A program made the translations under genes and the position numbers. The notes below the pieces were generated by a model. That model was given only the letters and a program-made list of their open reading frames with translations, had not been told where the DNA came from and searched no databases. Positions 8,062 through 20,633 of a stretch of 31,669 nt of DNA are shown here, one piece after another (positions within the stretch are counted from its first letter, which is position 1; every line of letters starts with the position of its first letter). Source of the DNA: a virus. The stretch covers positions 1 through 31,669 of IMG/VR virus record IMGVR_UViG_3300031673_006816; one strand, 5' to 3'.

Positions 8062-9231
8062 CTAGCCCTTCGCCTTCTTGCCCACCTTGACCTTCGGGAC
8101 CTCCGCCGTCTCCGAACCGGACTCGGCCTTCGCCTTCTTGGCCTGCGCCTTGTCGGCCTTATCCTTCTCGGCGAGGTACTTTGCGTTCTCGCCCGCGACG
8201 AACTCGTCGAACAACTTCAGCGCGGCCTTCGCCGCCTTCGGATCGTCCTCCGACTCCGGGTTGGTGCTGGGCGCGTAGGGAGTCTCCAACTCGCCCCGGT
8301 CCCACAGCGCCCACGCGATACCGCCGCGCAGGTTGTGGTACCGCTCGTACTGCTTGTCGTCCTCGGTGGAGGTAGCCAGGATGTTGCAGCCCACCCGGAG
8401 GACGTACTGCTTGGCCTTGCCCGACTTCCAGACCACGAGCGCCGCGTCCCGGGCCTTGCCGGTCAGGTGCTTCGCTGTGACCTCCTTCGGATGGGTCGCG
8501 CCCTCCGACTTCGCCACGCCCTTGATCAGCTTCTTGATCTCGGCGGCGGAGATACCGGGGTGGAGTTGGTCCTTGAGGATCGCCTTGCGCGCGCCGTCGT
8601 CCGCGTGCACGAGTTCGAGCCCCGCGATCATCGCGAGTTCTCCACTCTCGACCTTCGCCTGGACGTCCTTGGGGGCATCCATCAGGTCGAGACAGCGCCT
8701 GACTTTCTGCGAGTGGACCGACGTCTCCTGCGCGATCCGGGACACCGCCCACCCAGCGTCCCGCAACTGCATCGCGACCCGCCCGATCTCGATGGGGTTG
8801 AGGTTGATCCGGCCCTCTTCCGCGTTCTCGGCGACGGCGACCGCCCTCGCCTTGTAGTCGTCCCCTTCGAGGTCCACACGGATCGTGACCGGGACCGTCT
8901 CCCACCCCAGCAGATCGAGCGCCTTCAACCTCCGCTCGCCTGCGACGACGAGGAACTTCCCCTCCACGCCCTCCTTGGGTCTCACGGTGATGGGATTGAT
9001 CAACCCGTCCCGCTTGATCCCGTCCGCGAGGACTTCGACGTCCCCGACGAAGGACCTGGGGTTGAAGCCCTTGGTCACCTCGATGGCCCCCCGCGCCAAC
9101 TCGGACATGACCATGGCCTTCCCCTTCGTGGCCTTCGCGACGTCGCCCACGGTCAGCGGGACACCATGGAGGTATTGCACACCCGCTTCCTGCGCGGCCC
9201 CCTCCGACTTCACCTTCACGCTCTTGGGCAT
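8062..9231 (-). CDS. ParB-like DNA-binding protein (ParB/Srx N-domain plus HTH)
   Basis: 389 residues. Residues about 40-125 form a ParB N-domain: NPRSFVGDVEVLADGIKRDGL..., then the CTP/phosphate-binding signature GERR (98-101) in VVAGERRLKAL, then AENAEEGRINLNPIE. An HTH follows (about 150-185, VSRIAQETSVHSQKVRRCL). The remaining half is Lys/Ala-rich and ends PKVKVGKKAKG. Family roles range from partition and centromere spreading to transcription control. No parA is present, so regulation or genome organisation is more likely than plasmid-type partition. ATG 9231 has an AAGGAGGG site and is preferred to upstream codons. The gene has its own promoter and a terminator on each side, so it is a single-gene unit among operons. 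Confidence 0.88.
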   Translation of the reverse strand: MPKSVKVKSEGAAQEAGVQYLHGVPLTVGDVAKATKGKAMVMSELARGAIEVTKGFNPRSFVGDVEVLADGIKRDGLINPITVRPKEGVEGKFLVVAGERRLKALDLLGWETVPVTIRVDLEGDDYKARAVAVAENAEEGRINLNPIEIGRVAMQLRDAGWAVSRIAQETSVHSQKVRRCLDLMDAPKDVQAKVESGELAMIAGLELVHADDGARKAILKDQLHPGISAAEIKKLIKGVAKSEGATHPKEVTAKHLTGKARDAALVVWKSGKAKQYVLRVGCNILATSTEDDKQYERYHNLRGGIAWALWDRGELETPYAPSTNPESEDDPKAAKAALKLFDEFVAGENAKYLAEKDKADKAQAKKAKAESGSETAEVPKVKVGKKAKG

Positions 9232-9273
9232 TGCGCCCTCCTTTTCAGTGGCGGCAACGCCGCCAACACACAA

Positions 9274-9302
9274 AACATAGTGTAAACAATCCGCTGTGTC
9301 AA
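9274..9302 (-). promoter_or_regulatory. Sigma70-like promoter of the ParB-like gene
   Basis: TTGACA at 9297-9302 and TATGTT at 9274-9279 with a 17-bp spacer. It directly follows the RecA terminator. Element copy B (TTTACACTATG) overlaps the spacer and -10, a position where a bound repressor would block polymerase. Confidence 0.8.
9276..9287 (-). promoter_or_regulatory. Repeated element copy B (GTTTACACTATG)
   Basis: This copy matches the TTTACAC[A/T][A/G]TG consensus of the five copies in the window and is embedded in the -10 region of the ParB promoter. It is the copy that most strongly argues for an operator role. Confidence 0.45.
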
Positions 9303-9324
9303 GAAAAAATCCCGCGTGGCAGGA
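9303..9324 (-). terminator. Intrinsic terminator after recA
   Basis: A 6-bp stem TCCTGC/GCGGGA (one G-U pair, CAC triloop; 9310-9324) begins right after the RecA stop and is followed by TTTTTT. The ParB promoter -35 begins within two bases of the T-tract. Confidence 0.7.
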
Positions 9325-9325
9325 A

Positions 9326-10597
9326 TTATTCCGCGTCCTCGTCCACCGCAGTAATCGACTGCGCCTGCGCGCAAACGTCCTGCATCGCCTGCAGGGCGTG
9401 CGCGCGGAACCCCGGCACGCACATGGCCTTCAACCAACCGTCCCGATCCGCGAAGCCAACCTTCGACCAATCCGCCTTGTACCCACCGGAATTGCCATCC
9501 TTCTTGATCTTCTTCGCATCCATGAGGTAGTCGAACATGCTCAACTCCGGGCTCGGGCCGTGCTCGAAGTCAATCACGAATGACGCCTCCCTGTGCGGAG
9601 GGTACAGCCGGTTCTTGTCGGTCCGCAAATGAGACTCGTACCCCGTCGTCACGTCCCCCGACTTGATCGCCTTCCGGTATGCGACGTTGATCCGGATTGA
9701 TGCGGCATACCGCACAGCGTAACCCCCCACGGTCTCCGTCTTCTTCCCGAATCCAATCGCGCCGACCTTCGTGCGGATTTGGTTGACCCAAACCATGCAC
9801 GCCCGAATCTTCGCGATGGCCTTGTAGAGCTTCCGGCATCCCTTGCTCATACTGCGCGCGATCAGCGCAACATGGCTGTCACTGATGGACTTTTCGATCC
9901 GCTCCGCGCGGGGCACGCTCGCAGCCACCGAATCCCAAACGAACAACCACGGGGCCGGGGGTGGAGACTCCGGGTCTTCGAGGTCAGCCATGTACTTCCA
10001 GACGAGGTCCCAACCCTCCTCGATATCATCCGGGTTGGCATAGATCAACCGATCCTCGTCGATGCCCAACTGGATCAGCTTGTCGACATCCAGTGAGTTT
10101 TCGTAGTCGAGTATCACCGCTGTACCGCCGATGCTCTGGCACCCCCTGATCATCAGATGCGTCAGTGCGCTCTTCCCCACCCCCTCCGGACCGAACACTT
10201 CGACCGCACGCCGGACCGGCAGACCCCCGCCCAAGATCGCATCGACCTGCGGGAGCATCGTCGGTATCCACTCAGTCACGTCGGACAACACTACGTCACG
10301 GTCCGCCAGCAGACCGACGTTCTTCGGGTTGTACTTCTTCTTCACCCACAGCGCCCGCGTGGACTTCACGAGCTTCCGCGCCAACGCGGCGCTCGCCGCG
10401 ATCACCTCAGCAGACGGGCTTAGTATACTTGTCTCCGACTTTGACGAGTCCGGAGAGATTGGACTTGGGGGGCTTTCCGACTTTGATTTTGGGCTGGGAC
10501 TGGGGCTTTGACTTGACGGACCCTTCACCTTGATCGTCGCCTTCGCTGGAACCTTCACCCGCACCGGTGACTTTGAAGCTGACGTTGCCTTCGCCAT
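9326..10597 (-). CDS. recA: RecA/UvsX-type recombinase with low-complexity N-terminal extension
   Basis: 423 residues. The RecA core starts near residue 85. Walker A is GPEGVGKS (136-143) and Walker B LFVWD (218-222). The loop regions are followed by WVNQIRTKVGAIGFGKKTETVGGYAVRYAAS, typical of RecA. Known role: ATP-dependent filament on ssDNA and strand exchange. Residues 1-63 are an extra Ser/Pro/Lys-rich, probably disordered tail (KVKVPAKATIKVKG, SPSPSPKSKSESPPSP) encoded in a region that overlaps the previous gene by 191 bp in another frame. ATG 10597 is supported by AAGGAG seven bases upstream. A GTG at about 10405, right after the upstream stop, would remove the tail but lacks a comparable site. 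It sits in a cluster with SSB and UvsY-like genes and ends at an intrinsic terminator. Confidence 0.92.
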   Translation of the reverse strand: MAKATSASKSPVRVKVPAKATIKVKGPSSQSPSPSPKSKSESPPSPISPDSSKSETSILSPSAEVIAASAALARKLVKSTRALWVKKKYNPKNVGLLADRDVVLSDVTEWIPTMLPQVDAILGGGLPVRRAVEVFGPEGVGKSALTHLMIRGCQSIGGTAVILDYENSLDVDKLIQLGIDEDRLIYANPDDIEEGWDLVWKYMADLEDPESPPPAPWLFVWDSVAASVPRAERIEKSISDSHVALIARSMSKGCRKLYKAIAKIRACMVWVNQIRTKVGAIGFGKKTETVGGYAVRYAASIRINVAYRKAIKSGDVTTGYESHLRTDKNRLYPPHREASFVIDFEHGPSPELSMFDYLMDAKKIKKDGNSGGYKADWSKVGFADRDGWLKAMCVPGFRAHALQAMQDVCAQAQSITAVDEDAE

Positions 10598-10868
10598 TCG
10601 CTAACTCCTTCTCGCACAGCTTCTGCAGGGCCTCAACGTCCGCATCGGCCCCCAATGCGGAATAGACCGTATTCACGAAGTCGATCTCGCCCCGGAGCAC
10701 CCGGAACAACTGCTTCCGGAGTTCGCCCGCCAGGGCTGTCATGTCACCCGCCACGTCGTCACTCAACGTCCGACTGACAGACGCGTACGGCTTGAAGAAC
10801 ATGAATCCTTCCCCGACTTTGATCGTGGGGTTCGACCCGATCTCAACTCGGTCGCCTTCCTTCAACAT
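10407..10868 (-). CDS. Hypothetical protein with Lys/Ser tail, overlapping recA
   Basis: 153 residues, not recognised. Residues 1-95 look folded (GDRVEIGSNPTIKVGEGFMFFKPYASVSRTL, then amphipathic helices ending KLCEKELANG). The rest is low complexity with PKIKVGKPPKS and KVGDKYTKPVC. It lies between SSB and RecA, so a recombination or replication accessory role is plausible but not shown. Its last 63 codons are also read, in a different frame, as the RecA N-terminal tail. The start at 10868 has GGGAGGG upstream. That site falls in a small CTCCC/GGGAG hairpin (10878-10894) that could limit ribosome access. Confidence 0.72.
   Translation of the reverse strand: MLKEGDRVEIGSNPTIKVGEGFMFFKPYASVSRTLSDDVAGDMTALAGELRKQLFRVLRGEIDFVNTVYSALGADADVEALQKLCEKELANGEGNVSFKVTGAGEGSSEGDDQGEGSVKSKPQSQPKIKVGKPPKSNLSGLVKVGDKYTKPVC
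10605..10612 (-). promoter_or_regulatory. Ribosome-binding site deciding the recA start
   Basis: AGAAGGAG lies 7 nt before ATG 10597, inside the coding sequence of the upstream gene. It is the main evidence that RecA really starts 191 bp before the upstream gene ends. Confidence 0.65.
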
Positions 10869-10987
10869 CGCCCATCCCTCCCATCAAGAGGGAGTAGTGC
10901 GGAGGGCCGTCGTGGCGGTACGCGCGTGGGACCACGAACGGAGCTATCCACCTGACCTGCGTACTCTTCACACCCCCGCAGCACCCG

Positions 10988-12247
10988 TCACTTCTTGCTC
11001 ATCTTGGCCTTCAGCGTGCTCGACGCCGTCGGCTTCGCCTTGCCCACGATGGGCTTCGGAGCGGGCTTCGGAGCGGGCTTCGGAGCGGGCTTCGGCTTCG
11101 TGACGATCTTCGGCTTCACCGGCTTCTTCTCCTCGGGGGGCACTACCGTCAGACCCTCGACCCCGACCGTGAAGACGGTACCGTCCGCCACCCCCGCCAC
11201 CCCCGCAACCACCACGTCGGCGACGTTGTCCCCTTCCTCGTCCACGCTGGTCGACTGCACTTCCCCGACCACCTCGGCATCCTCGTACTCGAACTTGACG
11301 AGCATGCCCTTCTTCAGTTCGCCCTCCGCCGACTCCTCGCTGGCAGTCGCCGCGACGGGGGCGTCGTCATCGCTGGCGGTCTCCTCGCTGGCGGTCTCGT
11401 CATCATCGCTGGCAGTCGCCGCGACGGGGGCGTCGTCATCGCTGGAGGTCTCCGCAGCGGCAGTCGCGTCATCATCGCTGGCAGTCGCCGCGACGGGGGC
11501 GTCGTCATCGTCACCCGCATCGCCGTCCTCCGGCTTCTTCAACTTGGGAATCTGGCTGAAGACGGCCATGTACTTCTCCGGGATGTCCTCGCCGGTGAGG
11601 TGCATGTACATCTGCTGCATGAGTTCCTTGTTGACGGCGTAGAAATACCGCGCGACGTCGAAGGTCTTCGCGGCCTCTACGATGGCATCCAGCATCTTCT
11701 TGTCGTCGTGCAACGGCGTGCGGTCGAGGAACTTCACGCTCCACTCCGTGCTGAGTTCCTTGCCCTCCTTCTTGACCCTGATGTCGCGCCCCTCGACAGG
11801 ATCGGTGATGTCCTCGCCGTCGTCATCGTCCAGCATCGCGTCGACGATGGGCTGATACACGTACTTCGGCTTGGCGCGGAAAATGCGGATGTTGGGGTTC
11901 TCGGGCGTGCCTGGGTTCGCCCGGTCGATCACCGGCACCCAGTATTCGCGCTGGACGCGAACGACCTTGTTGATCGCTTCGATCTCTTCCTTGGACTTCT
12001 CCCGGCGGGCCTCGTCGAGGATGTCAATGATCGGGTCCGGAAGTCCCCACGTCTTCGGACTCGTCGTCGACTTCTTGGCCGAAACGTAGTAAACACTCAC
12101 GTACTCCTTGCCCGGAAGCTCGTCGAAGCACGGCAGCAGACGGAAACGCGCCTTGACCAGGGTCTTGTTGTCAATCAAGACCCCACCCCTCATCGACGCG
12201 ACCTGCCCCTTGAGCTTCTCCATCAACTCACTGGAAATCTTCGGCAT
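10988..12247 (-). CDS. gp32-like single-stranded DNA-binding protein with repeat linker and KPAP tail
   Basis: 419 residues. Residues 1-235 resemble phage gp32-type SSBs: a beta-rich core with RFRLLPCFDELPG, YVSVYYVSAKK, REYWVPVIDRANPGTPENPNI, KYVYQPIVDAML and the characteristic DITDPVEGRDIRV. T4-like zinc ligands are not evident. Residues 240-305 are three 23-residue acidic repeats (DDDAPVAATAS at 247, 270 and 293). Residues 310-365 look like a small beta-barrel/KOW-like module (KKGMLVKFEYEDAEVVGEV). The last 45 residues are basic KPAPKPAPKPAP ending KAKMSKK. Classical SSBs end in an acidic protein-interaction tip; here the acidic part is internal and the end is basic. The start has an AAAGGAG site. 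It lies between UvsY-like and RecA genes, as expected for a recombination cluster. Confidence 0.75.
   Translation of the reverse strand: MPKISSELMEKLKGQVASMRGGVLIDNKTLVKARFRLLPCFDELPGKEYVSVYYVSAKKSTTSPKTWGLPDPIIDILDEARREKSKEEIEAINKVVRVQREYWVPVIDRANPGTPENPNIRIFRAKPKYVYQPIVDAMLDDDDGEDITDPVEGRDIRVKKEGKELSTEWSVKFLDRTPLHDDKKMLDAIVEAAKTFDVARYFYAVNKELMQQMYMHLTGEDIPEKYMAVFSQIPKLKKPEDGDAGDDDDAPVAATASDDDATAAAETSSDDDAPVAATASDDDETASEETASDDDAPVAATASEESAEGELKKGMLVKFEYEDAEVVGEVQSTSVDEEGDNVADVVVAGVAGVADGTVFTVGVEGLTVVPPEEKKPVKPKIVTKPKPAPKPAPKPAPKPIVGKAKPTASSTLKAKMSKK
11051..11095 (-). repeat. 12-bp tandem repeat encoding KPAP
   Basis: gggcttcggagc occurs three times in a row, plus a partial fourth, inside the 3' end of the SSB-like gene. 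It encodes the KPAPKPAPKPAP tail. Confidence 0.85.
11339..11510 (-). repeat. 69-bp tandem repeat in the SSB-like gene
   Basis: An identical 34-bp core occurs at 11339-11372, 11408-11441 and 11477-11510, spaced exactly 69 bp. Each unit encodes 23 residues containing DDDAPVAATAS. The near-perfect DNA identity suggests recent duplication and possible length variation among relatives. Confidence 0.88.
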
Positions 12248-12290
12248 AGCACGACTCCTTTCTCCCGCCGGTCCTGACCTCTGGCTCTGC

Positions 12291-12308
12291 TGAGGGACCT
12301 ATCCCTCA
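12291..12308 (-). other. Stem-loop at the stop of the UvsY-like gene
   Basis: TGAGGGA/TCCCTCA forms a perfect 7-bp stem with a 4-nt loop and includes the stop codon. There is no following T-tract, so it is more likely an mRNA structure than a terminator. It lies between this gene and the SSB start. Confidence 0.4.
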
Positions 12309-12800
12309 TTCATGCATATCCACGAATCGGTCGACCAAACGGGTAACTACAAAGCACCTGTGGTGCATGGCTTCCTTCATCACCTTGAGAATCTCGTGCA
12401 CTCTCTTGGAATTGTTCCAACCCGCGAGCGAGGACTGTACGTGCTGGTCCAGGTCGGTGTGGGCTCTAAACTCAGCTTCGGTCGGCATGAAATCGCTGTC
12501 GCTACGCAGTGAGGATCGGTACCCAAGGTGGTACTCCGACCACACCCGCTTGTGCTTCAACTCTGCCGCATTTGCTTTGGCAGAAGCTCGTGCACACTGA
12601 TATGCCCAAAACGCATACCGCTCGTGCGCGTGGAGAGCAGCCTTGACCATCCCATCGGGATCGTCCGGGATGCTCAACTCCGCCGCGACGTTCATCGCGA
12701 CAACCGACTTATTCTCAAGGATGACTGTGATCGTCTCTGGAAGGAGATTCTCACTGCGAGGCAGGTCATCACCCTCGGGCTCACACTCTGCTGGAACCAT
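12306..12800 (-). CDS. UvsY-like recombination mediator candidate
   Basis: 164 residues, mostly helical. From residue about 55: YAFWAYQCARASAKANAAELKHKRVWSEY, then SLRSDSDFMPTEAEFRAHTDLDQHVQ, then WNNSKRVHEILKVMKEAMHHRCFVVTRLVDRF. This order (aromatic plus Trp helix, Lys/Glu-rich helix, short acidic break, an E/D-rich helix, a Trp-containing long helix ending R-x-F-x-(V/I)) is the layout of T4 UvsY, which loads RecA-type recombinase onto SSB-coated DNA. Placement directly before SSB, with RecA following, fits. Overall sequence identity looks low, so this is an inference from pattern and context. The start at 12800 has AAGGAG and GGGA sites upstream. Confidence 0.5.
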   Translation of the reverse strand: MVPAECEPEGDDLPRSENLLPETITVILENKSVVAMNVAAELSIPDDPDGMVKAALHAHERYAFWAYQCARASAKANAAELKHKRVWSEYHLGYRSSLRSDSDFMPTEAEFRAHTDLDQHVQSSLAGWNNSKRVHEILKVMKEAMHHRCFVVTRLVDRFVDMHE

Positions 12801-12838
12801 CCGGTCCCTTACTCCTTAGTAGTCGCCCAATGCGGTAA

Positions 12839-12867
12839 AATCTGCCACACCACTACGAGCATGTCAA
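12839..12867 (-). promoter_or_regulatory. Possible promoter before the UvsY-SSB-RecA cluster
   Basis: TTGACA (12862-12867) in the context GGTCTTGACA is very like the -35 at 6996-7001, and again contains the stop codon of the upstream gene. The -10 at 17 bp (CAGATT) is poor, so the promoter may be weak or activator-dependent. Confidence 0.35.
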
Positions 12868-13346
12868 GACCTTTTCCGCACTTTTGTCTTCTCCGCATGG
12901 CACCATACGCACAAGGTCTGGTACCCCTCAATCCCACACGTGCCCCCACCTTCCCTCACAGGCACGATATGGTCCGCGTCCCACAGTGACTTGAAAGCTC
13001 GGTCCTTCGATATTCCCAATGCTTCAGTGAGAGAATAGAAGGCTTTCCACCCCTCCTGATTCCGGGTGCGGGTGAGTTGCCTGCGGATAGCATTCGTGTC
13101 CCGACCACACTGGGCGCAGACACCCTTGTCTCGGCAGCGAACCATCGAACGTACGCCGAACCCACAACGGATACGGACCTCGTCCCGGCACTGCGTACTA
13201 CAGAAGCTCGTGCGGCGCGCCGCAACAAGACGGCAACCGCACCACCGACACAGCCAATAACCCTCGGCATCCTTGCGCTTCGGGTAGTCGCGATTCATGT
13301 CCGCAAACCGCTCTCGTCGCTTCACGCGAACACGGACCTTGCTCAC
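12864..13346 (-). CDS. HNH endonuclease with N-terminal zinc finger
   Basis: 160 residues. A basic N-terminus is followed by a zinc finger (CRWCGC...CSTQC), a CAQCGRD pair, then the HNH core DADHIVPVREGGG ... TLCVWCHAEKT, in which the His of ADHI, the conserved GGG turn and the CxxCH segment are intact. Known family role: metal-dependent DNA nicking or cleavage, as homing, restriction or resolvase-like enzyme. It may also help process phage DNA, given its place among replication genes. GTG 13346 is chosen because it overlaps the Pol stop as GTGA and has GGAAGG 7 nt upstream. Free-standing HNH genes next to polymerase genes are common in phages. Confidence 0.85.
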   Translation of the reverse strand: MSKVRVRVKRRERFADMNRDYPKRKDAEGYWLCRWCGCRLVAARRTSFCSTQCRDEVRIRCGFGVRSMVRCRDKGVCAQCGRDTNAIRRQLTRTRNQEGWKAFYSLTEALGISKDRAFKSLWDADHIVPVREGGGTCGIEGYQTLCVWCHAEKTKVRKRS

Positions 13347-16300
13347 GTGGATGCCTTCCACGCCATAGCCTCCCACAGTTCGTCGACGTTCGACGGTGTG
13401 CGTGAAAGTGACACACTGCCCTTCGCGTCAGTGACAAACAGGTCTGTCTCCACTGACTCATTCTCGACGACCACGAACGGATCGAACTCAACAAGATGTC
13501 CCCACGTGTATCCCATCTCCATCTCCGCCACAATTGGGACCTTCAGCCACTTCCAGTCGATCCCGGGCAGCACGCCCTCCGACAGCGAGGGCAGGTTCTC
13601 CATGATCTGCTTCGCGATGGTCGCCACTTCAAGCACCTCGTCAACGAGGCAGTCGAACACGAGGGAGTCGTGCACGGTCAGAATGATCAGGGACTTCAAC
13701 CCCCGCGCCTTCATCTCCATCATGATCAGGACGAGTGACATGAGGGTCATCTCGGACGCGCCGTTCTGGATCGGGAAATTGATGATCTGGCGTAGTGCCC
13801 TCGAACGAATCTCCTTGTCCTCGCTGAAGACCTCTGGCACGCGCCTGCGTCGACCAGTGAACGAATCGAGGTACCCCTGCTTGAGGACCCGCTGTTGTGT
13901 TCGCTCGATACCCGCCTTGAGCCCCGGACGCACCCGGAAGTATTGCTGGATGAACTCCTGTGCCTCCTCCGTCGTGATGAACACCCCGTCCTTCCGGAGC
14001 GTCGACACGAGGGCATTCGGACCCCCACCGTACAGGACACCGAAATTGATTCGCTTGGCCCGCGTTCGCATGGGCTTGCGTTCCTTCTCCGGGAGCGCAA
14101 GGAACTTCTCAAGCGTCATGTGGTGCATATCAGCAGCGGTCAACGTGTGAAGGTCGATCCCCTTCTTGTACGCCGCGATCATCGACGCGTCCCCGAACCA
14201 CGCCGCCGCGATGCGAAGCTCGATCTGTGAGTAGTCCGCCTGCAGAATCACCCCGTCGTCCCCGAAACGGGAGATGTACACACACTTAGCCTCGGGAGGT
14301 ATATTCTGCAGGTTGGGTTCTCGACTCGATAGCCTGCCAGTCACAGTCCCGTGTGGCAGGTATGATCCGTGCACGCACAGGTTCTGGTCGAGCCGACCCA
14401 AGACCGGCTGAATGAACGTGGAGTGGACCACTTCAAGTTCACGATAGCGGATGATCAGGGGCGCAAGGTCATTACCTGCCCGTTCGTAGTCGTGGAGCAC
14501 GTCGGCCTTCGTCGTGAAGAGGTCCCACTCCTTGTGCTCGATGGCCTGCTCGCACAACGCGGTGAACTCGACGAGAGGCTTGTTCTGAGCCTTGAGCTTC
14601 GCGTTGATCCGGGTGAATCGCGAGACCATTCGCTCGAACCCGGCATCTGTCAATTCGAGCGGCTTGAGCCCGTACCCATCGAAGAGCACCTCGCGAAGCT
14701 GCGTGGGAGACCCCGGGTTGAACTTGTGCTCCCCCGACTTCTTCTTCTGTTCCCGCGCGATCTCGAACTGACGAACCCTCGGCAGCTTCCGTACCGCCGC
14801 CATCTGGTCCGCCATCTTCTGCGTGTACTCCTTGTCGAGGGCCTGAACCTTGTCAACGTCTACTCTCGCCCCAGCGTATTCGAGGTCCGCAAGCGTCTCC
14901 GACAACCGGGGCAGGAAGGTGTTCGCAAGAGCCTGTATCCGCTTATTTTCCGCATACCCCGGTTCCGCGAGCATCCCGCTGTCACACCGCAGCGTCACGT
15001 CGGTGTCCATCGCGGCGTACGGGAACAACAATTCCGCCGGGATGTTCGCGTAACTACCACCCTTGTCGGGATTCGCTTCCGGGTGGGTCTTGATGTACTG
15101 CTCCAGCGGACGCTCGTACCCGCCCATGCCGGTATAGGCGAAGGCAATGGTCCCCAAACCGTGCGTGCCACGTCGTTCGTCGATGCAGAGATGCGTGAGC
15201 ATCGTGTCGCGCCGGAGCCCCTGAATGACACACCCACCAAGAGCCTTCCGTATGTGTTGCCGGTCAAACTTCTCGTTCTGTGCGATCTTCGGGACGTCCG
15301 ACTCAAAGACCTTCCGGAGAATGTCGACGACCTGCTGCCGCTGTCCTTCCTCCGGTCCGCCCACCCGCCACGGCGACTCCAGGTGATCGAACGGCACCGT
15401 GTACCCACTACCCTCCTCGCAACTGAAGCTGAAGCACAGGAGGGGCGGGAACTTGTTCTGAAACGGGCTGAGCGAACCGGTCTCAGTGTCGAACGACAGT
15501 TGGCTAGCCGCGAGGAGCTTCTCCCCCAGCTTCTCCACCGCCGGGAGCGTCTGCAGTACGTGGTACTCCCCCACCCCGGGCAGTGGTTTGTAATTACCCG
15601 ATAGGTATTCCTCGACACGAGCTATCGTTTCGAGGAACTCGTCTGTCTTGTAGTCCATCCGAAGCACGTACACCGGATGCAGACAGGCGAGGATGTCCTT
15701 GCCGTACCACGCCGGATGGGTGCTCTTCAAGAAGCGCCGGGAGAAGAAGGTAATACCAGTTTGGTTCGTCAGGAACTCCAGGCTACAGTTACCCAGCACC
15801 ACGATCAGTTCCGGTTGCCTCGCCTCGATCTCTCGCACGAGTTGATAGGAACAGCAGCGGATGTCCGTGGCGCGAGGGTCGCGGTTGCGCGGAGGACGAC
15901 ACCGGATCAAGCTAGTGAACGCGTACTCCTCCGGCTTGAGCCCGGTCACCTCCGGTATGACGCCCCGCAAGAGCGTACCTGACTTCCCCAGGAACAGCTT
16001 GCCCTTCTTGTCCTCCTCCGCCCCGGGAGCCTCGCCCACAAACAGCACACGGACGTGTCCCCACGGCTCCTCAGAGATGTTGCGGGTGTGAATGACGTGC
16101 TCGTCCTTCTCCTTCGCCAGTATCTTCTCCCAGTTACGCTGGTACTGCTCCTTGTAGATGCCGAAGTCGTGGGAGAAGGGCATAAGCGGGCAGAACATAC
16201 ACCCGGATTTTGAGTTACCCGGGTCAGGCGAAACTACATTCCCACCATACGCGGCCTCGTAGTTCGTGGCGATAGCAGTGGACCGCTTGGGATTCGGGCC

Positions 16301-16357
16301 GACCTTGACCTTCGGCTTCGCAGGGGCACACTTGATCTTGATCTTGATGCCCTTCAT
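13343..16357 (-). CDS. Uracil-DNA glycosylase / family A DNA polymerase fusion
   Basis: 1004 residues. An N-terminal Lys tail (KIKIKCAPAKPKVKVGPNPK) leads into a family 4/5 UDG-like domain (about 35-255) with GEAPGAEED (108-116), HPVYVLR (from H227) and iron-sulfur-type cysteines C53, C56, C153, C168/C169. A 3'-5' exonuclease domain follows: SFDTET (D290, E292), NEKFD (361-365) and YAAMD (447-451). The PolA domain has TGRLSS...NLQNIP (about 673-687), motif A LQADYSQIELR (D708), motif B R764-xxx-K768-xxx-F772 with Y776, and motif C TVHDSL (H896, D897). All catalytic residues are present, so this is likely the active replicative polymerase with proofreading. UDG-like N-domains on phage PolA enzymes are known from SPO1-type phages. 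ATG 16357 overlaps the upstream stop (ATGA). No 5' nuclease domain; that is a separate gene. Confidence 0.94.
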   Translation of the reverse strand: MKGIKIKIKCAPAKPKVKVGPNPKRSTAIATNYEAAYGGNVVSPDPGNSKSGCMFCPLMPFSHDFGIYKEQYQRNWEKILAKEKDEHVIHTRNISEEPWGHVRVLFVGEAPGAEEDKKGKLFLGKSGTLLRGVIPEVTGLKPEEYAFTSLIRCRPPRNRDPRATDIRCCSYQLVREIEARQPELIVVLGNCSLEFLTNQTGITFFSRRFLKSTHPAWYGKDILACLHPVYVLRMDYKTDEFLETIARVEEYLSGNYKPLPGVGEYHVLQTLPAVEKLGEKLLAASQLSFDTETGSLSPFQNKFPPLLCFSFSCEEGSGYTVPFDHLESPWRVGGPEEGQRQQVVDILRKVFESDVPKIAQNEKFDRQHIRKALGGCVIQGLRRDTMLTHLCIDERRGTHGLGTIAFAYTGMGGYERPLEQYIKTHPEANPDKGGSYANIPAELLFPYAAMDTDVTLRCDSGMLAEPGYAENKRIQALANTFLPRLSETLADLEYAGARVDVDKVQALDKEYTQKMADQMAAVRKLPRVRQFEIAREQKKKSGEHKFNPGSPTQLREVLFDGYGLKPLELTDAGFERMVSRFTRINAKLKAQNKPLVEFTALCEQAIEHKEWDLFTTKADVLHDYERAGNDLAPLIIRYRELEVVHSTFIQPVLGRLDQNLCVHGSYLPHGTVTGRLSSREPNLQNIPPEAKCVYISRFGDDGVILQADYSQIELRIAAAWFGDASMIAAYKKGIDLHTLTAADMHHMTLEKFLALPEKERKPMRTRAKRINFGVLYGGGPNALVSTLRKDGVFITTEEAQEFIQQYFRVRPGLKAGIERTQQRVLKQGYLDSFTGRRRRVPEVFSEDKEIRSRALRQIINFPIQNGASEMTLMSLVLIMMEMKARGLKSLIILTVHDSLVFDCLVDEVLEVATIAKQIMENLPSLSEGVLPGIDWKWLKVPIVAEMEMGYTWGHLVEFDPFVVVENESVETDLFVTDAKGSVSLSRTPSNVDELWEAMAWKAST

Positions 16358-16590
16358 TCCGCCTTCTTCCGCTTCCGAGGCTTCACCGGCTTCTTCAACT
16401 TCTTCGGCTTCACCGGGTCCTCGACGAGGTACCGGGTCTGAGTCGGCGGCTTGCGCGGCGGGACGGGTCGGTGCTCCAGCAGCAGAAACACCGACCCAGT
16501 CAGTGCCTGACGCTCGAAGCATTCGATTCGACGCGAGCACAACCGGCACTCCCGTGTGAGTGCCGGGTGCCCGAACCGTTGGCATTCCAT
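16354..16590 (-). CDS. Small cysteine-containing protein with Lys/Pro tail
   Basis: 78 residues, not recognised. The N-terminus has C3, C15, C18 and C24 (ECRLCSRRIEC), suggesting a metal site. The C-terminus is KPKKLKKPVKPRKRKKAE, another member of the basic tails seen here. ATG 16590 lies within element copy C. A GTG at 16605, two bases after the previous stop, is an alternative. Its stop overlaps the Pol start, so it is coupled to the polymerase. Confidence 0.6.
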   Translation of the reverse strand: MECQRFGHPALTRECRLCSRRIECFERQALTGSVFLLLEHRPVPPRKPPTQTRYLVEDPVKPKKLKKPVKPRKRKKAE

Positions 16591-16938: not shown

Positions 16939-18042
16939 CTATACCTTGCCTGCCATCTTGTACCCATACTTCTGCAGATTCGACCGAAGCGTCTTGAATG
17001 CAAGGGCTTCGATTTCCACCATTCGCTGCACGCTCTTGTGCTCCTTCGCGAGTTCTGTGACACCGTTGATCATGTTCCACAACGTGACCTCGTCCGGCGC
17101 GCGCCCCTCCTTCTGGGCCTCGACCATCGCGATCTGCGTGGACTGCTTGTCCAGCTTGGGACTCCCGCCGTTGGCGGGGTCGGCGATGAAATGCTTCACT
17201 GACCGAACCTCGTTGGCAGACAACACCCGACTCGCGGACTGCACGAGCATCGGCGCGATAGCCTCCGCACGTTGGGCGGACTTCACGATGGCTTTCTGGA
17301 CCTCATGCTGTACATCGCCCACGTGCCGGACAGTCTCCATGTACCGTCCCTCACGGGCTGTCATACCGTTGGTGCATACTAAGCGAAGGTTGTAGTCACA
17401 CACCTTGGCGGAACAGTCACCGTGGATCGAGTTCTCCAACGACATGCCGAACTGCACAACGTCGCCCTTCACCGGCTCCACCCGGAGCTTCTCGCTGACG
17501 CACGTCACACGAAGATTGGGGCCGGACAACCAACTTCCGCTCACGCCCAACCCGGGCATCGCGGACTGCGCCCACTCGACAATGTTGAGGTTCGAGAGCG
17601 GCTTGTACGTGTCCTTGCCGACGATGCCCTCGATCCTTCCCGACGTGGAGTCGATGACGAGGAGCTTCGCGGGACCGGCGTAAAACGCCTTCTCGATCAT
17701 CGTGTACATGATCTCCCCGGCGAGTTCCTCGTTGATCTTCGCGAGCCTCTTCAAGAAACTGACTGGGGTCTTCGTCCAGTGGCACAGGTCCCCAAAAGCG
17801 GCGTTCGTCAGATACCACTGCGTACCCTCGACGCTACCATCCATGCCGATCCGGGAGTTGAGGTTGTCACCGTCGATGAGTGCCGTGTCCTCCGACTGCT
17901 CCACCAACGCCTGCAGCAGATTATCTACATTCGAGCCGAAGCCCACGGAGGGTGGTGTCTGGAGTGTATACCCAGCGAACTCATGCTCCAAGTTCGCCTT
18001 CATCTGTTCCTGCGCGGCAGCAATCTGATCCTTCATCGACAT
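16939..18042 (-). CDS. DUF932 family protein
   Basis: 367 residues. It resembles the DUF932 / phage-plasmid-like family: an N-terminal region with TQWYLTNAAFGDLCHWTKTPVSFL, a central beta-rich part, and the recognisable SAKVCDYNLRLVCTNGMTARE followed by a helical tail. The family is common in phages and plasmids near replication or recombination genes, and its biochemical role is not settled. An excellent AAAGGAG site precedes ATG 18042. It lies between primase and polymerase, which fits a DNA-metabolism role. Confidence 0.82.
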   Translation of the reverse strand: MSMKDQIAAAQEQMKANLEHEFAGYTLQTPPSVGFGSNVDNLLQALVEQSEDTALIDGDNLNSRIGMDGSVEGTQWYLTNAAFGDLCHWTKTPVSFLKRLAKINEELAGEIMYTMIEKAFYAGPAKLLVIDSTSGRIEGIVGKDTYKPLSNLNIVEWAQSAMPGLGVSGSWLSGPNLRVTCVSEKLRVEPVKGDVVQFGMSLENSIHGDCSAKVCDYNLRLVCTNGMTAREGRYMETVRHVGDVQHEVQKAIVKSAQRAEAIAPMLVQSASRVLSANEVRSVKHFIADPANGGSPKLDKQSTQIAMVEAQKEGRAPDEVTLWNMINGVTELAKEHKSVQRMVEIEALAFKTLRSNLQKYGYKMAGKV

Positions 18043-18072: not shown

Positions 18073-19155
18073 TTACCGGCTCCCCCGTCGATTACGCCTG
18101 CGAGTATATTGGACGGTGAGCCCGCTAGCAACAACTTTCCGCGCGTTTTTTAGCGCATCACCCGACAAACGTAGTCGTATGCGGTCTGTCACACCCGGGG
18201 TAACACGCTGTGCCATCAGTTGAGGCAGGATGCTGCTGTTATCGTCCGGGTCACCCCGGTCGAACTGAACAACTGTCACCTTCGGCAAGCACGCTCGCAA
18301 CCGGTCGTATGCTTCGTTCGTCTCACGCCCCGCGTCGGCATCAAGGGACAACACGAACTCCTTCGTCCCATACTCAGCAAGTACCATCAGCAGGCCCACC
18401 TGCTCGTCGCTGATGAACTTCCCCATTGTCGCCACCGCCGATTCATGCACCATCATCGAGATGGGACCCTCGGCTATCGCCACCACCGGTGCACCGACCA
18501 CTCCGTCGAAGTTCAGGAGGCAAGTCCGCCGCGTATGGTACCCCTCTGCATTCCTCGGGTTCTTCGACTTCATACTGGAATCCCCGCAGAAGCGGGAGGC
18601 GAAGTACACCTGCTGCCCACCCATACACACAGGGAATATCAGGTACCCAGCATACTCGCCGGTCGGGCAGTAACCCACGTTGTAGTGCTTGATCTGCCAT
18701 TCCGTGATCCCACGCACCTCCTGCAGATACCTGAACGCGTTGCGCATGAGTTGGGGCGGATCATCGAGGTGCTCCCTCAACCACATGGTTTCTCCCGGAA
18801 CCCGAACGGGCTTAGGAGAAACCGACACCTCGTCAGGGGGATACAGCACGCGGAGCACAGCCTTCGTCACGGACTCTGTGAGCGGCTCTCGCTCGCCCTT
18901 CAGGAGGGCCAATTCCTCCATCAAGAGCCGCCCGCCGTTCAGGCTCAGGAATAACTGCCGCAGGGACGAGGTCCCGTACCCACAGCGATAGCATACGCCC
19001 TTGCCCTTCTCGACATTGAACCAGAGCTTCCGATCTTTCGATTCGTCGCCCAACCGGTCGATGCAAAAGGCACAATGAAACTGGTACTCCGGACCAGACC
19101 CCGTGTGCGATCCCATACGCTTGTCAAGGTAGTCGAGGAGGTTGTTGTACTTCAT
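18073..19155 (-). CDS. DnaG-type DNA primase (zinc finger plus Toprim)
   Basis: 360 residues. A CHC2-like zinc-binding region uses H27, C28, C31, C55 and C58 (HCAFC ... CYRCGYG). A Toprim fold follows with E229 in AIAEGPISMM and D272-x-D274 in LSLDADAG, the metal-binding acids. Known role: synthesises RNA primers on the lagging strand, working with the DnaB-type helicase encoded immediately upstream. The start ATG 19155 forms TGATG with the helicase stop, so the two are made together. Compact compared with bacterial DnaG (about 580 residues), with no obvious C-terminal helicase-binding domain. Confidence 0.92.
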   Translation of the reverse strand: MKYNNLLDYLDKRMGSHTGSGPEYQFHCAFCIDRLGDESKDRKLWFNVEKGKGVCYRCGYGTSSLRQLFLSLNGGRLLMEELALLKGEREPLTESVTKAVLRVLYPPDEVSVSPKPVRVPGETMWLREHLDDPPQLMRNAFRYLQEVRGITEWQIKHYNVGYCPTGEYAGYLIFPVCMGGQQVYFASRFCGDSSMKSKNPRNAEGYHTRRTCLLNFDGVVGAPVVAIAEGPISMMVHESAVATMGKFISDEQVGLLMVLAEYGTKEFVLSLDADAGRETNEAYDRLRACLPKVTVVQFDRGDPDDNSSILPQLMAQRVTPGVTDRIRLRLSGDALKNARKVVASGLTVQYTRRRNRRGSR

Positions 19156-20633
19156 CACACCCCCAACTTCTTTGACGGCTTCACGCTCTTCACGATAGCC
19201 TTCGCCTTCGACGCGGCCTCCTTGATCTTGACTGTCGTCTTCACCTCCGCCGCCTTCTTCACGGCCTCCTCGACTTCCTCGTCGTCATCGAACGGAGTGT
19301 GAATGGGGTTGTACGACGAGTCGAGTAACATCTTCGACCGGATCAGGCAGCGGTCACGCGCGATACTGCACAGGACCATCCGCCCGTCCTCCATGTTCCG
19401 CAGTCCGATACCAACAAGGCGGCACTCCTGCTTCAGCCTTTCATCATCGGTCTGGCAGAATGCCAAGGCAGCGTCGACGATAGCCGCCTTCTCGAACGCC
19501 TCAGCGAAGTCTCCAAGGTTCAGAGTCACCTTGTCCAGCGCGCTCCGGGGGGCCTGCGAAGCTGTCCACACCGCCGCGTTGAACTCACCCGCGATCTGCC
19601 GGAGGTCCTCATAGATTCCAGCCTGCTCATGACGCATCTCGCCCATCCGCCGCTCGGCTCGCATGATGTCCGCGTAGTCGACGATCACCGTGTCGGGGGT
19701 GAAGCCGCGACTCGCCAATAGAGACAAGTGGGTCCGCACCATCGAGGAACTCGCTGACCGGGTCGGGTACCCCTTGACGAAGAGCCGCCCCCGGACGTAC
19801 TGCTTGATCCGCCGGTCGAGCGTGCCGATATACTTATGGGGGTTCGACTTCTTGTACTTGACCGCCGCCCCCGCCAAGCGGTCGTCGTACCGTCCAACGA
19901 CCTTCGCGTCTGACATTTCCAGCGTATAGTGCACGACGTTGAGCCCCAACACGGACACGAGCCCACCGAACCCGAAGTTGACCAAGGTGGTGGTCTTCCC
20001 TCGCTTCGGTGGCGCGAGCACCACACCCAACTCGCCCCGGCCCAACCCACCCCCCAGCATGTAGTCGAGGTGCGGTATCCCAGTCGGCATGTACCGATCA
20101 TCATCGCTGGTGTCCTGCAGGAGGTACCCCGACAACCGGTCCGTCGCGGTCGCCTTGAAGTCGATCCCGACATTCAGGATGTCCTCGCCCACGAGAGTCG
20201 CCTCGTGGATCAACGGGAGGATGTCCCGGTTCCCCTTCTCGATCTCCTCCGCGCCCTCCATCACCGCGTTGATCATCGCTTGCAGCTTGCCGAACTCGAC
20301 GACCTTCCCCATCACAGCTTGCGCGTCGGAGATATCCCGCTTGAACATCTTCTCCAACCGCTTCTCCGCCGCCCCGAAAACCTTCTCGTCCGTCTGCGCC
20401 TTGACCTCCTCAAAGAGCGTCACGCGAGTGGGTAGCTTCTGATTCTTGTCAACGTGGCCCAACAGTCCCTGTGCAATCGAGCGGAGGACCGCCGACCCGA
20501 AGTACGAGGAGTCCAGGGCCGTACGGTACCGAATGATGAACCCCGGTACCCGCGCGGCAACAGCGAGCATGTGCTCCTGGAACTCCTCGCCGAACTGCTC
20601 ACCGTATGTACCTATGTTGTTACTACTGTCCAT
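19155..20633 (-). CDS. Replicative DnaB-type DNA helicase
   Basis: 492 residues. The N-terminal about 150 are helical, as in DnaB-N. The RecA-like motor starts at MPTGIPHLDYMLGGGLGRGELGVVLAPPKRGKTTTL: Walker A is APPKRGKTT at 207-215. The family Glu is likely within YTLEMSD, and Walker B is VIVDYADIM near 315. Known role: hexameric 5'-3' helicase that opens the fork and recruits primase. The last 30 residues are Lys/Ala-rich (VKIKEAASKAKAIVKSVKPSKKLGV), similar to tails on other proteins of this cluster. ATG 20633 overlaps the preceding gene by 11 bp. Confidence 0.93.
   Translation of the reverse strand: MDSSNNIGTYGEQFGEEFQEHMLAVAARVPGFIIRYRTALDSSYFGSAVLRSIAQGLLGHVDKNQKLPTRVTLFEEVKAQTDEKVFGAAEKRLEKMFKRDISDAQAVMGKVVEFGKLQAMINAVMEGAEEIEKGNRDILPLIHEATLVGEDILNVGIDFKATATDRLSGYLLQDTSDDDRYMPTGIPHLDYMLGGGLGRGELGVVLAPPKRGKTTTLVNFGFGGLVSVLGLNVVHYTLEMSDAKVVGRYDDRLAGAAVKYKKSNPHKYIGTLDRRIKQYVRGRLFVKGYPTRSASSSMVRTHLSLLASRGFTPDTVIVDYADIMRAERRMGEMRHEQAGIYEDLRQIAGEFNAAVWTASQAPRSALDKVTLNLGDFAEAFEKAAIVDAALAFCQTDDERLKQECRLVGIGLRNMEDGRMVLCSIARDRCLIRSKMLLDSSYNPIHTPFDDDEEVEEAVKKAAEVKTTVKIKEAASKAKAIVKSVKPSKKLGV

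Follow-up and report, generated by a model that had tools for sequence, protein, structure and literature searches.

Lysine-rich terminal tails of conserved position and variable wording on the replication and recombination proteins of a phage clade

Lysine-rich low-complexity regions are a mark of DNA-binding proteins (PMC6821194). In actinobacterial TopA, Lys repeats stabilise the protein on DNA and confer processivity (PMC7398561), and the basic tail of HupB is needed for stable DNA binding (PMC5676037). Such tails, which include the TopA Lys repeats, the PAKK/KAAK tail of HupB and the tail of Ku, are usually treated singly, protein by protein. Among phages, the T4 replication proteins provide a reference: the C-terminus of the T4 single-stranded DNA-binding protein (SSB) gp32 is acidic (PMC12893549, PMC3016280), UvsY binds ssDNA in part through the Lys and Arg of its conserved KARL motif, LKARLDY (PMC3016280), and UvsX and gp32 form condensates that depend on the disordered C-terminus of UvsX (PMC11951158). 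In SPO1-like Herelleviridae such as Lysinibacillus phage LysYB1, a UDG-PolA fusion polymerase (Pol), SSB, RecA and 5'-3' exonuclease follow one another in the order found in the locus described here.

The window is the whole analysed stretch, an IMG/VR fragment of 31,669 nucleotides (31.7 kb) with almost all of its called genes on the minus strand. Its replication and recombination module encodes SbcC-like and SbcD-like proteins, a PIF1-like helicase, a 5'-3' exonuclease, a ParB-like protein, RecA, the product of a gene designated g10407, a gp32-like SSB, an HNH protein, the UDG-PolA fusion, a DUF932 protein, a putative primase, DnaB and a ResIII/DEAD helicase (Table 1). By Pol, the named phages that come closest are SPO1-like phages of Bacillus and Lysinibacillus, with approximately 32% identity. 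The LysYB1 RecA already has a basic N-terminal tail, whereas its Pol is tail-less and starts with the UDG domain, its SSB has an acidic stretch followed by an end lacking a Lys tail, and its SSB and RecA genes are not separated by a g10407. Relative to T4, the locus shares an SSB core that matches gp32, with its basic N-terminal helix, and a UvsX-like recombinase with an LKxRL-type start in some members; its SSB tip resembles the UvsY KARL motif. No UvsY homologue was recognised, and g10407 sits between SSB and RecA. Like the actinobacterial tails, those of the window are Lys/Ala/Pro repeats, predicted disordered and terminal, on DNA-handling proteins of a GC-rich genome. They differ in being borne by six proteins of one phage module, at either end of the chain and in a genome-particular dialect, and they read PKVKVG, KPAPKPAP or KIKIK, with no PAKK/KAAK consensus. 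Elsewhere in the window, positions 26695-27207 encode a protein in which 9-nt tandem repeats give a collagen-like GPTGATGPTGATGPAGPG repeat close to the C-terminus, and an ORF at 27239-28021 is similar by eye to NUMOD/HNH homing endonucleases.

Table 1. Features of the replication and recombination module and its terminal tails, in window coordinates.
Feature	Position	Strand	Basis
ParB-like protein (ParB_N + HTH_ParB), 389 aa	8062..9231	-	Pfam E=1.5e-11
ParB Lys-rich C-terminal tail, ends VPKVKVGKKAKG	about 8062-8181	-	terminal Lys content
PKVKVG copy 1, ParB C-terminus (CCG AAG GTC AAG GTG GGC)	8080..8097	-	
ParB tail codon-phased 15-nt tandem array	8122-8172	-	repeat scan
RecA/UvsX-like recombinase	9326..10597	-	Pfam RecA E=6e-44; phrog_97 UvsX E=3e-53
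g10407, folded domain (about 92 aa) and predicted disordered C-terminal tail with PKIKVG	10407..10868	-	
Out-of-frame g10407/recA overlap, 191 nt (g10407 C-tail and RecA N-tail)	10407..10597	-	
RecA N-terminal tail, Lys first then Ser/Pro-rich	about 10409-10597	-	
PKIKVG, g10407 C-terminus (CCC AAA ATC AAA GTC GGA)	10476..10493	-	
gp32-like SSB	10988..12247	-	phrog_1192 E=6e-9; AlphaFold; Foldseek
SSB Lys/Pro/Ala tail, exact 12-nt repeats, KARL-like tip STLKAKMSKK	10991..11131	-	
UDG-3'-5' exonuclease-PolA fusion polymerase, 1004 aa	13343..16357	-	Pfam UDG, DNA_pol_A_exo1, DNA_pol_A
PKVKVG copy 2, Pol N-terminus (CCG AAG GTC AAG GTC GGC)	16298..16315	-	
Pol tail ATCAAG x3 array, just upstream of PKVKVG copy 2	16331-16348	-	
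Small protein, Cys pairs and Lys/Pro C-terminal tail	16354..16590	-	homologues in L011 and G007
Small Lys/Pro protein tandem array	16359-16416	-	
DUF932 protein, N-terminus MSMKDQI resembling SSB tip motif	16939..18042	-	Pfam PF06067 E=2e-10
DnaB-like helicase	19155..20633	-	Pfam DnaB_C E=7e-13; phrog_19 E=9e-62
DnaB Lys-rich C-terminal tail (TTVKIKEAASKAKAIVKSVKPSKK)	about 19158-19271	-	

Relatives were recovered by profile scans using Pol and DnaB as queries; single-protein scans with RecA, SSB and ParB found a near-identical contig (G001) as the sole relative. Ranked by Pol identity, the clade comprises L005 (77%), L011 (67%), G009 (58%, 143 kb), G002/G003 (56%), G007 (52%) and G008 (43%, 150 kb), together with G001, L013, L006, G004 and G006/G005. 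Gene order is kept across the clade: helicase, DnaB, primase, DUF932, Pol, SSB, g10407, RecA, ParB, exonuclease and SbcCD. Nine loci from a later scan (L070, L071, L073, L074 and L076-L080) formed a held-out set and were put to no other use; L069 was left out because its proteins are identical to those of G009 across the matched parts, and L072 is a duplicate of L073. Start codons of some relatives were hand-chosen, and some g10407 copies missed by the gene caller were recovered through frame analysis upstream of recA. A scan of bacterial genomes returned one distant match and identified no host. Several relatives show further peculiarities. L045 and L047 (G002, G003) have two neighbouring ParB-like genes where the window has one. 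In the RecA of L077, an HNH-like stretch ending VIHN runs directly into CGKSALAH and looks like an intein in the Walker A motif. The G008 Pol ORF (L034:12904-16914) spans 1337 aa, compared with 1004 in the window, and the L079 Pol match is interrupted; an intein or insertion is possible in each. L053:613-3489 encodes a 959-aa protein with a Lys-rich N-terminus and weak matches to intein splicing (E=9.5e-5) and to terminase/helicase.

A preliminary description of the window had drawn attention to Lys-rich tails on six proteins: Pol, RecA, ParB, SSB, DnaB and g10407. With Lys content measured in the first and last 40 residues and a cut-off of at least 20%, tails were found in the window on 5/5 proteins of this set and 0/21 others, and the five called proteins highest in terminal Lys are exactly SSB, ParB, DnaB, Pol and RecA. 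The pooled relatives gave 19/32 set proteins versus 22/556 others (Fisher P=2e-16), and the held-out genomes 24/38 versus 1/83 (P=1.5e-14). Lys-rich ends occur at conserved positions in orthologues of about 15 relatives, with a net charge over the tail-bearing 40 residues of mostly +3 to +19. Tails are weak or Ala/Pro/Arg-rich in the most distant members (1/5 in G008 and 0/5 in G006 at the 20% cut-off), and Pol tails are weaker among the held-out genomes. The window is without identified structural genes; in the relatives, the identified structural proteins (tail sheath, baseplate, major head protein and head protease, the contractile-tail sheath being assigned by PHROG only) contain 0-10% terminal Lys and no tails. 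The label of DNA-metabolism proteins proved too broad: Lys tails are missing in the window and most relatives from primase, FEN-like exonuclease, SbcD and the main helicase, and the motif as a general mark of DNA proteins was rejected on this ground. Since these phages have other DNA-binding proteins that are mostly tail-less, DNA binding alone leaves the choice of proteins unexplained. Among the extra tail bearers are DNA proteins, namely the SbcC and a ParB-methyltransferase of G009 and a G008 helicase, whose tail reads KAKAKVKVKVKVTGKK. In the G008 ResIII helicase (L028:903-3029), the C-terminal tail KAKAKVKVKVKVTGKKAKR is the nearest echo of the window's KVKV words beyond the core six.

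It is proposed, with moderate confidence, that disordered polycationic tails at fixed ends of the six proteins hold each of them on or near DNA by charge. The sequences show the presence, conserved position and specificity of the tails, together with the genome-specific dialects, repeat content and g10407/RecA overprinting described below. Because their exact letters vary between viruses while positive charge is kept, the tails probably serve to attach replication proteins to DNA and not as a fixed address label. A convergent DNA-binding tail, raised earlier as an alternative, fits better than a PKVKVG tag, the DNA tethering itself being a step that we infer.

The SSB illustrates how such a tail is placed. 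AlphaFold models of nine sequences predicted a common layout of helix, OB core, acidic stretch, beta-domain, Lys tail and C-terminal helix. In the window SSB, these correspond to a helix at aa 6-19, an OB core at about 22-230, disordered Asp-rich repeats at 239-308 (11324-11533), a Tudor/SH3-like domain at 316-366, a disordered Lys tail at 373-410 and a helical tip, STLKAKM, at 411-417, with pLDDT<50 over aa 373-419. The SSB and g10407 tails are both predicted to be disordered. Foldseek matched the SSB core to T4/RB69 gp32 (1gpc, E=1.9e-7; 2a1k, E=2.8e-7), and the beta-domain (window 11150-11302) has a weak match to Tudor folds (E=0.02). In contrast to the acidic C-terminus of T4 gp32, the SSBs of the window and its relatives have an acidic linker, then the Tudor/SH3-like domain and then a basic end, the last 40 residues carrying a net charge of +12 in the window protein and of +4 to +19 in those of the relatives.

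The SSB tip raises the possibility that a KARL-like amphipathic element (L-K-x-[RK]-[LIM]), at the SSB C-terminus and the N-termini of RecA, DUF932 and some Pol proteins, docks on ssDNA or the SSB core and that the Lys tail is a mere linker. A pattern near [SGT]-[LIM]-[KR]-x-[KR]-[LIM] ends 8/8 aligned SSBs with a complete end (loosely in G004 and G006), and similar starts occur in RecA (MSLKDRM in G007, SLKARM in G009, MGLKDKM), DUF932 (MGLKERM in G007, besides the window protein) and Pol (MSGIKARL in L073). T4 UvsX likewise begins MSDLKSRL, and UvsY provides the ssDNA-binding precedent. The strict motif, which was defined post hoc, occurs nine times in termini versus 0.7 after shuffling, and twice in bodies versus 1.6. 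However, its excess in the held-out set is modest (4 versus 1.09; 23/1000 shuffles), an SSB-tip PSSM over all termini gave weak enrichment in core proteins (P=0.006), and the tip is missing from several RecA and most ParB and g10407 termini. Moreover, Lys-rich sequence easily yields short basic-hydrophobic pieces. The tip is regarded as a weaker docking lead, by resemblance and with no claim of KARL membership, and docking as the main role of these ends seems rather unlikely.

Less probable still is that the tails, being basic, attract the acidic tracts of SSB (its Asp repeats), of the RecA C-terminus and of ParB, and in this way assemble a liquid replication compartment. RecA has a basic N-terminus and an acidic C-terminus in every measured member, the end being mildly acidic in the window; in SSB, an acidic linker whose charge falls to -15 per 20 residues precedes the basic end; and the ParB proteins of G009, G004 and L080 are basic then acidic. 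The T4 UvsX/gp32 condensates would be a precedent, but the scaffold there is the C-terminal tail and not a basic N-terminal one, and acidic tails may be merely self-inhibitory.

The tails of g10407 and RecA are encoded by the same DNA. The g10407 protein has no Pfam or PHROG match; its AlphaFold model contains a beta-sheet and two helices, without a match in the PDB, and residues 93-153 have low confidence (pLDDT <50 at 93-120, mean about 55 after). Orthologues were found in 12 genomes, and g10407 overlaps recA in 12/12 genomes in which both genes could be placed, over 62-191 nt (62-149 nt in the 11 relatives) and in the same relative frame every time. Both the g10407 end and the RecA start are specified by the shared bases, which usually yield Lys-rich sequence in one or both frames. 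A Shine-Dalgarno sequence, AAGGAG, precedes the recA ATG at 10597. The Ser/Pro run SQSPSPSPK is common to the window and L011 RecA proteins, which argues that the recA frame is real protein sequence. As a rough yardstick, since gene calling restricted overlap and overlooked several g10407 copies, overlaps of at least 70 nt were called 8 times in 646 same-strand neighbour pairs. Overprinted viral genes, the subject of general reviews (PMC8227390, PMC7017920), likewise use the same DNA in two frames; what distinguishes the present overlap is that it codes for disordered ends, those of two neighbouring proteins, and is kept in every genome checked. The small Lys/Pro protein gene overlaps the Pol start by ATGA.

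The preliminary description centred on PK[VI]KVG, which does occur at the ParB C-terminus, in the Pol N-terminal tail (MKGIKIKIKCAPAKPKVKVG) and in the ORF before RecA. One reading offered for it was a common targeting or docking tag, taken here as a specific peptide recognised by a single receptor of the phage or its host. Three copies were observed against about 0.002 expected from shuffled window proteins, and different window tails share more words than composition predicts when I and V are equated (8 five-residue words versus 0.68, P=0.001; 4 six-residue words versus 0.07, P=0.002). The near-identical contig G001 has the motif in its orthologues, and in L011, Pol and g10407 have KVKVG at the corresponding positions and RecA has RVKVKV. 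The ParB and Pol copies differ at 1/18 bases, which carries little weight because 94% of window Lys codons are AAG. The g10407 copy differs from that of ParB at 6/18 bases, and both its Lys codons are AAA, which the recA frame imposes; these codons rule out DNA copying as the origin of this copy. The same bases read PKSKSE in the recA frame, and their L011 counterparts read AKVKVG in the g10407 frame and PKSKSG in the recA frame.

Against a docking peptide, PK[VI]KVG was not found in the orthologues of relatives other than G001, and all six frames of the nine held-out loci contain neither it nor a K[VI]K[VI]KV run. Different words stand at the same places elsewhere (AKKKT in G009, KKSAPKK in G002), and KVKV overall shows no clear excess over shuffles of the same termini (7 versus 3.8; 11/100 shuffles). 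Within the window, the related Lys-rich runs noted in the RecA N-terminus, SSB tail, DnaB C-terminus and small Lys/Pro protein all exist, but without PK[VI]KVG, and the RecA run had been given wrong letters and actually reads VRVKVPAKATIKVKG. As this wording is absent from the held-out loci and replaced in other genomes, PKVKVG as written is a feature of one lineage, and a docking peptide is very improbable. Absence of the motif from orthologues in close relatives had been named beforehand as a refuting condition, and most orthologues do lack it. The preliminary description was right that the tails are common and particular to replication proteins, but PKVKVG is not their conserved element.

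Non-homologous tails are more alike within a genome than across genomes, both in composition (cosine 0.805 versus 0.725) and in composition-corrected alignment z (0.74 versus 0.18; label permutation P=0.0005, or P=0.001 without the overlapping RecA/g10407 pairs and L011). For the ends of other core proteins, no effect of residue order was seen (P=0.34), and the effect of composition was small (0.010, P=0.008). Codon-phased tandem arrays lie within the terminal 60 codons in 16/41 tail proteins versus 18/406 others (P=9e-10); ATCAAG or AAGGTC repeats give KIKI or KVKV, and AAGCCCGCTCCG gives KPAP. From sequence patterns of this kind, the dialects and arrays are read as probable repeat slippage under selection for charge. 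That the tails are neutral, functionless low-complexity ends produced by slippage is very improbable, since fast turnover and tandem repeats would be expected but not the same six proteins, ends and charge sign across about 15 genomes (43-77% Pol identity), nor the sparing of structural genes.

Under the favoured reading of tethering by charge, the positive tails would keep the proteins attached to DNA or close to it, and might also bind acidic tracts of SSB, RecA and ParB, so concentrating the replisome at phage DNA. Selection would act on charge and place and leave the letters free, while slippage of codon-phased short repeats may rewrite the letters quickly and give each phage its own tail dialect, of which PKVKVG would be that of the window lineage. 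A bolder version, which is doubtful at present, holds that a self-made charge code joins the replisome: six non-homologous proteins would carry co-evolving polycationic tails, several with a shared KARL-like tip, in dialects set by slippage, and overprinting of two tails would make g10407 and the recombinase evolve jointly.

In this clade, Lys-rich tails extend over an entire phage replication module, at conserved places and with letters that turn over yet remain alike within a genome. The tails are thus natural material for testing if selection on disordered ends acts on charge or on sequence, and dual coding can be studied cleanly where two such tails overlap out of frame in a conserved manner. 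The tails also allow the question of whether polyelectrolyte contacts build phage replication compartments to be addressed.
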